From NCBI RefSeq assembly GCF_037201975.1, contig NZ_CP147520.1, positions 5,518,001-5,582,000 on the forward strand: DNA of 64,000 nucleotides, given 5' to 3'. Source of the DNA: Streptomyces sp. TG1A-60 (lineage in GTDB: Bacteria > Actinomycetota > Actinomycetes > Streptomycetales > Streptomycetaceae). Made by a program: the position numbers and the translations under genes. Position 1 is the stretch's first letter. Each line of letters starts with the position of its first letter. Below are positions 49,682-52,902 of this stretch, piece after piece. A model generated the notes under the pieces. It was not told the DNA's origin. It made no database searches and saw only the letters and a program-made list of their open reading frames with translations.

Positions 49682-50353
49682 ATGCGTTTCAACCGGATGC
49701 TGCTCTCCACGACCCTGGTGATCGTCGCCCTGGTGATCCAGGTGAGCGTCCTCGCCAGACTCCACCTCCCGGGCGCCGTACCCGACCTGGTGCTCCTCAC
49801 CGTCCTCGGCCTCGCCCTGGTCTACGGCCATGTCGGCGGAGCCCTGATCGGCTTCGGCGCCGGGCTGCTGTCCGACTTCGCGCCACCCGCCGACCACGCC
49901 GCCGGACGGTACGCCCTCGTCCTCTGCGTCATCGGCTACCTCGCGGGTCTCGCCAAGCCCGAGACAGGCCGGCTCAAGTCGGCGACCGGGCCGATGGCCG
50001 TGGTCGTCGTCGCCGCGCTCGGCTCGACGCTCCTCTACGCCGGTGTCGGCGCCCTCGTCGGCGACGACGCCGCCCGCCATGTCGGCCTGGGCAGCCTGCT
50101 GTTCACCGCCGCGCTCTACGACCTGCTGCTCGCGCCGTTCGTCGTCCCCGGCATCATGGCGCTCGCCCGGCGCGCCGACAACGACCCGCTCGCCGAGACC
50201 GGCAGCGCCGCCAAGGCGTCCGACGTCTCCTCCGGCTGGCTCTCCTCCGGCACCGGCCTGCGCATCGGCAACCAGCGCGGCGGCCTCCGCATCAAGGCCG
50301 CGCGATCACGCATGGCCAGGGCGGGACGCATCAAGGGGGTCAAGCGGCTGTGA
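49682..50353 (+). CDS. mreD: rod-shape determining protein MreD
   Basis: 223 residues with about five membrane helices in the first 165 residues (start MRFNRMLLSTTLVIVALVI, then DLVLLTVLGLALVYGHVGGA). A cytoplasmic basic tail (about 180-223, RIGNQRGGLRIKAARSRMAR) is present and longer than in Gram-negative MreD. It is the integral membrane part of the MreBCD wall-synthesis complex. It sits 28 bp after mreC and 11 bp before a small ORF. Confidence 0.93.
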   Translation: MRFNRMLLSTTLVIVALVIQVSVLARLHLPGAVPDLVLLTVLGLALVYGHVGGALIGFGAGLLSDFAPPADHAAGRYALVLCVIGYLAGLAKPETGRLKSATGPMAVVVVAALGSTLLYAGVGALVGDDAARHVGLGSLLFTAALYDLLLAPFVVPGIMALARRADNDPLAETGSAAKASDVSSGWLSSGTGLRIGNQRGGLRIKAARSRMARAGRIKGVKRL

Positions 50354-50364
50354 GGGGACGTCAC

Positions 50365-50484
50365 ATGGCACCCGGGACGGATGCGGGAACCGATCACGGC
50401 CGAGCGGTGTACTCCATGTACCGGCACCACGCGCACCACCCGTACGCGCACCACCCGTACGCGCACCACCCGTACGCGCACTGA
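50365..50484 (+). CDS. 39-residue histidine-rich small ORF inside the mre cluster
   Basis: An ATG at 50365, nine bases after GAGGGG, opens a frame that exactly fills the space between mreD (stop at 50353) and pbp2 (GTG at 50497). The product starts MAPGTDAGTDHGRAVYSMYR, then has HHAHHPYAHHPYAHHPYAH: ten histidines and regular HHPYA units. A second in-frame ATG is at 50416. A GAGAGGGGGAGA sequence around its stop serves pbp2. The peptide could bind nickel, zinc or copper, or the ORF may only maintain ribosome flow. No family recognised and expression unproven. Confidence 0.5.
   Translation: MAPGTDAGTDHGRAVYSMYRHHAHHPYAHHPYAHHPYAH
50431..50481 (+). repeat. 15-bp tandem repeat, 3.4 copies
   Basis: GCGCACCACCCGTAC occurs at 50431, 50446 and 50461 without a single mismatch, followed by a partial GCGCAC. 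Identical copies suggest recent slippage expansion, and the length varies in whole codons. Confidence 0.9.
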
Positions 50485-50496
50485 GAGGGGGAGACA

Positions 50497-52902
50497 GTGA
50501 CCAACATCCCAGAGACCGGGCGGACCCCACGGGTCCGGATCCGGCTCGTCATCATCCAGATCCTCGTCTTCTCCCTCCTCGGCACCCTCGGCGGTCGCCT
50601 CTGGTACCTCCAGATCCGCGAGGGCGACGCCTACGCCAAGGAGGCCTCCGGCAACCACGTCCAGCAGGTCGTGCAGCCCGCCATGCGGGGCTCGATCCTG
50701 GACGCGCGCGGTGTGCCGATCGCCGACAACGAGACACGGCTGGTCGTCTCCGCCTCCCGCACCGACCTGCTGAAGATGGACGATGACGGCAAGGCGGTCC
50801 TCGCCAAGCTCGCCGACGTCCTGGACATGAAGCCCAAGGAGGTCATGGACAAGGTCCGCCTCTGCGACTCCGAGACCCCACAACCCTGTTGGAACGGCTC
50901 GCCGTACCAGCCGATCCCCATCACCGACGAGGCCACCGTCAAGCAGGCCCTGCAAATCCGCGAGCGCTCCGAGGACTTCCCCGGCATCACCGCCGAACCC
51001 CAGGCCGTACGCCGCTACGCCAGCCCCGGCGGCGCCGACACCGCCCAGGTCCTCGGCTATCTCTCGCCGGTCACCGACGAGGAGGTCACCAAGGCACAGG
51101 ACACCGACTCGCCGTACCTGCGCTCCGACCAGGTCGGCCGGTCCGGCCTTGAGCGCCAGTACGACAAGGAGCTGCGCGGCAAGGCCGGCGTCACCCGCTA
51201 CGAGGTCGACAACCTCGGTCGCGTCATCGGCGAGGCCGAGGCCGACCCCGCCAAGCCCGGCGCCAACCTCGTCACCAGCATCGACGCCCGCGTGCAGCGC
51301 ATCGCCGAGTACGAACTCAACGAGGCGATGAAGGAAGCCCGCAAGCAGATGGACCGCAACACGGGGACGAACTACAAGGCCGACTCCGGCGCCGTCGTCG
51401 TGATGGAGGCCAAGACCGGCCGCGTCGTCGCCATGGCGTCCAACCCGGACTACGACCCGAACGCCTGGGTGGGCGGAATCTCCGCCAAGGACTACGCGAG
51501 GCTCACCGGAAAGAAGTCCAACTACCCGCTGCTGAACCGCGCGATCCAGGGCCAGTCGGCCCCCGGCTCCATCTTCAAGGTCATCCCGACCGCGGCCGCG
51601 ATCAACGCCGGCTACTCCTTCAACGGCCCGTACGAATGTTCCAGTTCGTACTCGATCGGCGGCCAGGTCTTCAAGAACTTCGAGTCCAAGGGCTACGGCG
51701 CGATCAGCCTCGGCAAGGCGCTGGAAGTGTCCTGCGACACCGTCTTCTACCGTCTGTCCCACCAGGAGTGGAAGCGGGACGGCGGCATCAAGCCGAAGAA
51801 GGGCGCCAACGACTGGTTCTACAGGACCGCCCACCAGTTCGGCCTCGGCGCCGAGACCGGCATCGACCTGCCGAACGAGGTCACCGGCCGCATCCCGGAC
51901 CGCCAGTGGAAGCAGGAGTACTGGGAGGCCAACAAGGACGCCTGGTGCAAGTACGGCAAGAAGGGCGGCTCGTACGCCGAGCAGATCGCATACGAGAACT
52001 GCCTCGAAGGCAACCGCATGCGCGCCGGTGACTCCGTCAACTACTCCATCGGCCAGGGCGACACCCTCGTCACCCCCATCCAGATGGCCACCATCTACGC
52101 GGCCATCTCCAACGGCGGCACCCTCTACGACCCGACGGTCGGCAAGGCGGTCATCAGCGCCGACGGCAAGAACGTGCAGGAGATCGCACCCAAGTCGCAC
52201 GGCAGGCTGCCGATGACGAAGCAGGCGCGCGACAAGATAGACGAAGCTCTTGAGGGAGTCGCGACCCGTGGCACGGCCGCCTGGCGCTTCCAGGGCTGGC
52301 CGCAGGACGAGATCCCGATGCACGCCAAGACGGGTACGGCCGAGGTCTACGGCAAGCAGACGACCTCCTGGTTCGCCACGTACACCAAGGACTACTCGAT
52401 CGTCATGACGATCTCCCAGGGTGGTACGGGCTCCGGCGCCTCGGCCCCCGCCGTGCGCAAGCTCTACAACGCGCTGTACGGCGTCTCCGAGGACGGCGAG
52501 ATCGACAAGAGGAAGGCGCTGCTGGCCACGCCGCAGAAGGGCCTGCCGAAGATCGAGTCCGACGGCTCGATCGACGCCCCGAAGCTGGAGGCGTACCCGC
52601 CGAAGAAGACCGAGGAGGAGAAGGCCGCGGAGGACGGCACCCAGGCCGTCGCCGCGGGACCGGCCGGCCGACCGGTCTCCTTCGAGCAGGACGAGGGCGC
52701 CGTGGTCACCGCACCCGGCACCGGGACCCGGGTCACCGGGCCGGCCCCGGGAGGCCTCGTCACCGGACCCGGCGCCGGGTCCGCGGTCGCCGACGACCTG
52801 GTGGCGACCGCCGGTCCGCGCGGCGGCAGCGGCAACCGGGCCGCCCGGCGGCGTACGGACCGTGGCCGTGGCCGAGGGAAGAAGCGGAGGACATCCGTAT
52901 GA
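50497..52902 (+). CDS. mrdA: penicillin-binding protein 2 (class B transpeptidase)
   Basis: 801 residues. After a short cytoplasmic part there is one membrane helix (about 17-40). A PBP dimerisation domain follows (VVQPAMRGSILDARGVPIADN). The transpeptidase domain has the active serine at about 358 in SAPGSIFKV, SxN in DSVNYSIGQG and KTG in HAKTGTAEVYG. It crosslinks peptidoglycan together with the RodA polymerase. A C-terminal tail of about 120 residues has VTGP/VTAPG units and ends strongly basic (GRGRGKKRRTSV), unusual for PBP2. GTG at 50497; its stop overlaps rodA in ATGA. Confidence 0.96.
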   Translation: MTNIPETGRTPRVRIRLVIIQILVFSLLGTLGGRLWYLQIREGDAYAKEASGNHVQQVVQPAMRGSILDARGVPIADNETRLVVSASRTDLLKMDDDGKAVLAKLADVLDMKPKEVMDKVRLCDSETPQPCWNGSPYQPIPITDEATVKQALQIRERSEDFPGITAEPQAVRRYASPGGADTAQVLGYLSPVTDEEVTKAQDTDSPYLRSDQVGRSGLERQYDKELRGKAGVTRYEVDNLGRVIGEAEADPAKPGANLVTSIDARVQRIAEYELNEAMKEARKQMDRNTGTNYKADSGAVVVMEAKTGRVVAMASNPDYDPNAWVGGISAKDYARLTGKKSNYPLLNRAIQGQSAPGSIFKVIPTAAAINAGYSFNGPYECSSSYSIGGQVFKNFESKGYGAISLGKALEVSCDTVFYRLSHQEWKRDGGIKPKKGANDWFYRTAHQFGLGAETGIDLPNEVTGRIPDRQWKQEYWEANKDAWCKYGKKGGSYAEQIAYENCLEGNRMRAGDSVNYSIGQGDTLVTPIQMATIYAAISNGGTLYDPTVGKAVISADGKNVQEIAPKSHGRLPMTKQARDKIDEALEGVATRGTAAWRFQGWPQDEIPMHAKTGTAEVYGKQTTSWFATYTKDYSIVMTISQGGTGSGASAPAVRKLYNALYGVSEDGEIDKRKALLATPQKGLPKIESDGSIDAPKLEAYPPKKTEEEKAAEDGTQAVAAGPAGRPVSFEQDEGAVVTAPGTGTRVTGPAPGGLVTGPGAGSAVADDLVATAGPRGGSGNRAARRRTDRGRGRGKKRRTSV

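Follow-up and report, generated by a model that had tools for sequence, protein, structure and literature searches.

A probable sequence-indifferent translational bridge between mreD and pbp2 in Streptomyces

Known short reading frames and the mreD-pbp2 junction

The mini-ORFs of the mycobacterial interspersed repetitive units (MIRUs) are said to have been reported by Supply in 1997. Like the reading frame presented here, such an element places a short ORF between the genes of an operon, is coupled to the next gene by a -4 nt overlap and leaves expression unbroken by the insert. However, MIRUs are mobile interspersed repeats, whereas the unannotated frame found in our window (the whole stretch of 64,000 nucleotides from Streptomyces sp. 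TG1A-60 that was analysed), which will be called the bridge, is single-copy in its own genome, and the bridges of different species are not one sequence. The 4-nt overlap is found at mreD (GTGA) and also at pbp2 (NTGA) in 73 of 191 loci with a long gap; in the window, the downstream end abuts pbp2 instead. The MIRUs occur in several genomic copies; the 143-nt gap of the window, the only one searched in this way, matched nothing but itself in its genome, and an interspersed repeat was rejected on this ground. According to a 2025 review, there are short ORFs that solely deliver ribosomes, and MIRUs are mobile repeats whose ORF couples to the gene at the site of insertion (PMC12548453).

A second related system is termination-reinitiation at 4-nt overlaps (Huber 2019, 2023; PMC6728339, PMC10666635). 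The NTGA of this system is shared with the mreD/bridge junction and, in many loci, with the bridge/pbp2 junction. In the systems described in these papers, the two genes touch, whereas here a mini-ORF lies across 40-318 nt. The 4-nt overlap is stated there to be the commonest arrangement in prokaryotes, and in E. coli reporters a 38-nt gap cut reinitiation by 80-90% in two gene pairs and abolished it in a third (PMC10666635). Since a 38-nt gap impairs reinitiation in reporters, a gap of 40-318 nt should break the coupling.

Reinitiation has also been proposed from leader genes, with a peak of spacing at 10-11 bp in Actinobacteria including Streptomyces (Korolev 2016; PMC4833913). Leader genes and the short ORFs of bicistronic designs resemble the bridge in that a short ORF, thought to supply ribosomes, lies a few nucleotides before a gene. 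Leader genes precede a gene only, whereas the bridge is tied at both ends, also to the preceding gene. Its spacing is near the leader-gene peak and mostly longer: 12 nt separate stop and pbp2 start in the window, and 12-19 nt in 81 of the 191 long-gap loci (first-ORF stop at -20 to -13). In Salmonella, the short ORF mgtQ of the mgtC-mgtB gap promotes downstream translation (PMC8092293). It shares with the bridge its position between operon genes, but it acts via particular acidic codons and alternative stem-loops, whereas the sequence of the bridge appears to be free. Searches of open-access literature, assessed by title and abstract, turned up no report on an ORF or junction between mreD and pbp2, nor on sequence-indifferent bridges kept through frame changes.

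In the window, the locus is organized as follows (window positions):

49682-50353, forward strand: mreD (Pfam MreD, 25.1 bits against a cut-off of 24)
50333-50340, forward strand: putative Shine-Dalgarno of the bridge ORF, AAGGGGGT, in the mreD tail (codons AAG GGG GTC), proposed from glycine-codon bias and pairing energy
50350-50353, forward strand: GTGA, bridge start overlapping the mreD stop
50350-50484, forward strand: bridge ORF, 44 codons and TGA, enclosing a 39-codon ORF at 50365-50484
50386-50424, forward strand: stretch common to 11 loci of the window's own clade; it has GGAAC but lacks the CGTT that follows after 18 bp in many other relatives
50429-50481, forward strand: perfect 15-bp tandem repeat (TRF), 3.5 copies encoding HHPYA units, probably a recent in-frame expansion
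50482-50499, forward strand: bridge stop TGA (50482-50484), pbp2 Shine-Dalgarno GAGGGGGAG (50485-50493) and pbp2 start GTG (50497-50499)
50497-52902, forward strand: pbp2 (Pfam Transpeptidase and PBP_dimer; from the ORF list)

The mreD tail reads AAG GGG GTC AAG CGG CTG TGA, and the bridge frame opens on a GTG (50350-50352) whose TG forms the first letters of the mreD stop TGA (50351-50353). The earlier note on this DNA had described a 39-codon ORF with GAGGGG upstream that exactly fills the gap. This ORF, which begins with ATG, is present, but its frame opens earlier, at GTG 50350; it spans most of the gap but ends 12 nt short of the pbp2 GTG, its TGA running into the pbp2 Shine-Dalgarno. Among relatives the overlapping start is general; the internal ATG with its GAGGGG is not. 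Further downstream, the pbp2 stop and the rodA start overlap by ATGA at 52899, and the aligned rodA start likewise lies in NTGA in 60 of 74 named loci. A Pfam search of the bridge peptide gave no match.

The two ends of the bridge across the genus

Junctions were collected from 150 genomes of the genus, 149 of them with a mreD match (none in G008, only a fragment in G001), and from named Streptomyces contigs. The first set of 227 loci was reduced to 204 with both genes and with pbp2 aligned from residue 1, 197 of them distinct. Among the 22 loci that failed, 13 had a diverged mreD and were read separately: 7 had a gap, with the first ORF ending at +3 in all 7, and 6 were gapless. The others dropped were three pbp2 copies without recognisable mreD (L078, L083, L085), L087 (contig starting within mreD; gapless by eye), L105 (no pbp2 N-terminus), L108 and L109 (Butyricimonas), and L220 and L225 (truncated). 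L179, with pbp2 aligned from residue 5, was also left out; by eye, its ORF VTEGAPAA ends on the pbp2 ATG. The second set consisted of 69 loci, once 8 repeated junctions, 3 pbp2 paralogues without mreD and 9 loci of other families had been removed from 89 later ones.

Pooling yielded 266 distinct Streptomyces junctions: 191 with a long gap (at least 40 nt, spanning 40-318 nt), 49 with a short gap (13-37 nt) and 26 gapless, in which the pbp2 start itself overlaps the mreD stop. All these counts concern related, hence not independent, loci. The pbp2-like genes without recognisable mreD upstream (L306, L307 and L308, also L078, L083 and L085) are apparently second copies outside the mre operon; L306-L308 have 72-75% identity over the pbp2 N-terminus.

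At the upstream end, the mreD stop is a TGA overlapping a start codon in 266 of 266 junctions (261 GTGA, 4 TTGA and 1 ATGA). In the mreD tail, AAGGGGGT is able to pair with the anti-Shine-Dalgarno. Of the 191 long-gap loci, 182 have GGG as the glycine codon of this tail and the other 9 have GGA. Over mreD, GGC makes up 73% of the glycine codons and GGG 11%, and at none of 20 other conserved mreD glycine sites (86 loci) was GGG the majority codon. Pairing energies, computed against the anti-Shine-Dalgarno sequence, averaged -10.5 for 27 distinct long-gap tails versus -6.0 for synonymous draws; the 19 gapless tails gave -10.6 versus -5.9. Short-gap tails, which have the pbp2 Shine-Dalgarno nearby, gave -5.9 versus -4.4 (21 tails), and GGG was present in only 6 of the 49 short-gap loci. 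On the tree (FastTree, 403 pbp2 columns, 265 loci), this contrast between long and short gaps provided 5 independent pairs (p 0.25), too few independent events for the comparison to be retained. Five further diverged long-gap loci had GGG three times, GGA once and GGC once (L205). The fixed last mreD codon, CTG, was discarded as weak evidence, because 3 of 28 other conserved leucine sites are as fixed.

At the downstream end, a relay was scored as strict when one to three mini-ORFs followed each other from stop to start, by overlap or by Shine-Dalgarno spacing, the last one ending between -20 and +7 of the pbp2 start. Such a relay was intact in 190 of 191 long gaps versus 136.2 ± 5.0 (maximum 151) in 200 dinucleotide shuffles of the pooled long gaps with both ends kept, and was made of one ORF in 163 loci, two in 26 and three in 1. 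Together with the NTGA at mreD, this is the arrangement that coupling by stop/start overlap would predict. The sole exception, L240, has a two-ORF arrangement whose Shine-Dalgarno lies, by eye, just outside the spacing rule. In the first set, the relay was intact in 148 of 148 long gaps (106 ± 4.8 in 300 shuffles) and in 47 of 47 low-similarity representatives (33.6 ± 2.7, maximum 40).

In the 191 long gaps, 82 first ORFs had their stop at +3 or +7 relative to the pbp2 start (the 73 with NTGA there being those at +3), 81 had it at -20 to -13, and 28 further upstream. No first ORF stopped between -48 and -21, where the null gave 11.9, and none ran on into pbp2 (null 14.3). Among the early stops, 27 of 28 overlap a new mini-ORF or lead into it by a Shine-Dalgarno, and this second (once a third) ORF reaches pbp2; the chance expectation is 9.6%. 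The length of the short gaps was 1 mod 3 in 48 of 49, which makes the stop of the mini-ORF overlap the start of pbp2; in the exception, L271, a TAG lies ahead of the Shine-Dalgarno.

A single open frame says little, because DNA of this GC content has few stops. The pbp2 start was also reached in about 70% of shuffled gaps (103.5 of 148), other gap frames are often open too (129, 120 and 92 of 148), and a lone 44-codon frame is unremarkable. Frame openness was therefore rejected as evidence by itself; the significance of the bridge ORF lies in what other species show.

Four predictions for the second set (n = 69) were fixed beforehand and held, with two small exceptions. An overlapping start was found in 69 of 69 loci, a strict relay in 42 of 43 long gaps (exception L240), a length of 1 mod 3 in 19 of 20 short gaps (exception L271), and GGG or GGA at the long-gap glycine codon in 43 of 43.

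Nine loci from other families of the order were read by eye; L312 had no mreD match and the arrangement of L314 was not clear. The gap of L309, 13 nt long, is arranged in the same way, from GTG to ATGA, and in L310, L311, L316 and L317 a TAG is directly followed by ATG. In L313 and L315, TAG or TAA is separated from the next ATG by about 32 and 57 nt, with no overlapping start and no relay. Among all the loci, long gaps with a bridge were seen only in Streptomyces.

Free sequence, length and frame between the ends

Substitutions in the bridge frame were distributed equally over the three codon positions (.163/.160/.160; 128 close pairs, with no locus in more than two of them), compared with.019/.011/.122 in pbp2 and.121/.104/.196 in the mreD tail. 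Indel runs in the bridge numbered 192, 128 and 125 for lengths of 1, 2 and 0 mod 3, respectively. Parsimony on the FastTree tree required a minimum of 55 switches in the frame relation to pbp2 and a minimum of 27 in gap class. For instance, L048 and L050 have gaps that are one base apart in length, and L050 is mostly in another frame; it does not have the TGA used by L048 and ends on the pbp2 GTGA. The length of the first ORF ranged from 9 to 98 aa in the 191 long gaps. In the earlier note, repeat changes in relatives by other than multiples of three were held to count against the proposed small ORF; indels of this type are present, but the resulting frame is still open to pbp2.

Tandem arrays were present in 41 of the 191 long gaps, with a period of 0 mod 3 in 26, 1 mod 3 in 4 and 2 mod 3 in 11. 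L197 (period 56) and L199 (period 53) have large arrays that are not multiples of three, the unit having the length of a mini-ORF linked to the next via ATGA. About three tandem copies were also seen in L286 (gap of 289 nt) and L212 (gap of 318 nt); in L212 the period of 78, repeated three times, is divisible by three and the frame is open through the copies.

A second mini-ORF of the type GTGACC..CACCCGTC (VT.xHPSPTTT..), with its own Shine-Dalgarno or a GTGA link, was observed just before pbp2 in L012, L025, L063, L066, L075, L077, L082, L084, L090, L112, L113, L146 and others. At the pbp2 ATG, most of these loci carry ATGGGCTGCGCCCATG or a closely similar sequence, which forms an inverted repeat around the start codon. 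The gapless loci L007, L086, L101, L123, L128, L165 and L173 have long-gap loci among their nearest tree neighbours; recombination between GTGACC-like ends could remove a gap exactly.

Proposed mechanism, alternatives and meaning

From the comparison of sequences, the reading frame is probably a sequence-indifferent translational bridge tying pbp2 to mreD, with a probability of roughly 0.78. The comparison shows selection on the start, the ribosome-binding site and the stop of the bridge; the movement of ribosomes over it is what we infer. Ribosomes finishing mreD would restart at the overlapping GTG, aided by the Shine-Dalgarno in the mreD tail, would translate the mini-ORF, and would then terminate at the Shine-Dalgarno/start site of pbp2 and restart there. 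In this way translation of pbp2 would remain coupled to that of mreD even though the gap exceeds what direct reinitiation can span, and the bridge peptide would be a by-product. The gap would drift and grow by slippage, with only relay-preserving changes persisting, and the histidine repeats of the window would be one recent expansion of this kind, in five-codon units. The suggestion of the earlier note that the ORF is a translational coupler for pbp2 is thus favoured by the cross-species comparison (relay, start overlap and Shine-Dalgarno).

Against the bridge, pbp2 has a good Shine-Dalgarno of its own, from which an independent start could occur. The GGC at the glycine codon of L205 and the gaps without relay of L313 and L315 are also counted against it. 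Accessibility of the pbp2 start was not used as evidence, since the differences were too slight: in 60 loci the unpaired probability was 0.417 at the start, 0.387 over the bridge and 0.350 over the head of pbp2.

A C-rich untranslated stretch could invite Rho. Translation of the bridge might then serve mainly to have ribosomes follow RNA polymerase closely, which would prevent Rho-dependent termination in the gap, rather than to deliver them to pbp2. As for the bridge, its 3' half has a G-C skew of -0.258 (146 loci). However, the first 150 nt of pbp2 are as C-rich as the bridge. Mere coverage would also allow a stop 21-48 nt before pbp2, where 0 of 191 loci have one (null 11.9), and in 48 of 49 short gaps, whose length should be of no concern to Rho, the stop is nevertheless on the pbp2 start. 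As the main function this is unlikely; exclusion of Rho may be an additional reason for the bridge.

The gap could also exist for a DNA element, such as an internal pbp2 promoter, with the open frame being incidental. Of the 191 long gaps, 70 (L040, L048, L049 and L050 among them) contain the motif GGAAC-N18-CGTT with a spacer of exactly 18; when spacers of 10-26 were scanned, one case each appeared at 17 and 25, and letter shuffles averaged 0.02. It is read in three frames (62, 5 and 3 cases), which fits a promoter-like DNA element, not a peptide. RNAalifold found no consensus pairs in 58 distinct GGAAC-CGTT segments (single segments averaged -9.1 kcal/mol), and an Rfam search of 50100-50800 gave no match; a shared RNA family or hairpin was accordingly rejected. 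The motif resembles ECF-sigma promoters, but published sigma-E promoter models have 16- or 17-bp spacers (PMC6767563). It is a candidate reason why gaps arose. The motif is missing from 121 of the 191 long gaps, including that of the window (GGAAC without the second half), and an incidental frame would leave the overlapping start, the Shine-Dalgarno in mreD and the relay unexplained. Such an element may account for the origin of the gap, not for its bridging, and as a full explanation it is unlikely.

The earlier note had also envisaged a metal-binding or regulatory peptide, and a functional small protein of the wall machinery would agree with the overlapping start and ribosome-binding site of the ORF and with a window peptide that is 25% histidine (11 of 44). 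The HHPYA repeats are encoded, as that note had it, by perfect 15-bp units (3.5 copies without mismatch, 50429-50481; TRF 100% matches, score 106), which is not due to chance, and the single HHPY of the close relatives L002 and L031 supports the recent length change that it proposed. But purifying selection on the peptide is not seen: the rates at the three codon positions are equal, and within the window clade (8 distinct sequences) the variable columns number 4, 4 and 5 by codon position, with no clear third-position excess. The frame changed many times, the length varies from 9 to 98 aa, and at least 20% histidine occurs in 1 of 191 first ORFs, the window's own, whereas 25 of 191 have no histidine. 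There is no Pfam match, and among public predicted proteins of relatives sharing short exact words a single match was obtained, of 29 aa, with the same sequence as the L031 ORF when this is begun at the internal ATG. A functional peptide is very improbable on these grounds. The 29-aa prediction, an unnamed protein of Streptomyces adelaidensis (P0001), is part of one bridge already called as a gene.

Finally, an N-terminal extension of PBP2 by TGA readthrough, suggested by the 49 codons that keep bridge and pbp2 in one frame from 50350 to 50497 in the window, is hardly credible, as the bridge has switched frame relative to pbp2 55 times or more and 0 first ORFs run on into pbp2.

If the translational bridge is the right reading, the path of the ribosome would have been kept by evolution, and the peptide not, throughout the genus and despite 55 or more changes of frame (parsimony). 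An exotic-looking small ORF such as that with the histidine repeats may then be a spacer that needs to be translated, and searches for conserved small proteins will miss such bridges. One can then test whether, and by what means, selection preserves coupling at spacings where it disappears in reporters. As the mreD and pbp2 products are parts of the wall-synthesis complex, a balanced output of the two is plausible. More tentatively, and with less confidence than in the bridge itself, we propose that Streptomyces keeps a genus-wide 'ribosome relay': a class of genes selected for nothing but an uninterrupted series of codons between two genes, with sequence, length and frame all free to vary. 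Such genes would let the operon absorb inserts between mreD and pbp2, for example the ECF-type promoter GGAAC-N18-CGTT, without losing its translational tie. Other operons may hold many more of these genes, unannotated for want of a conserved peptide.
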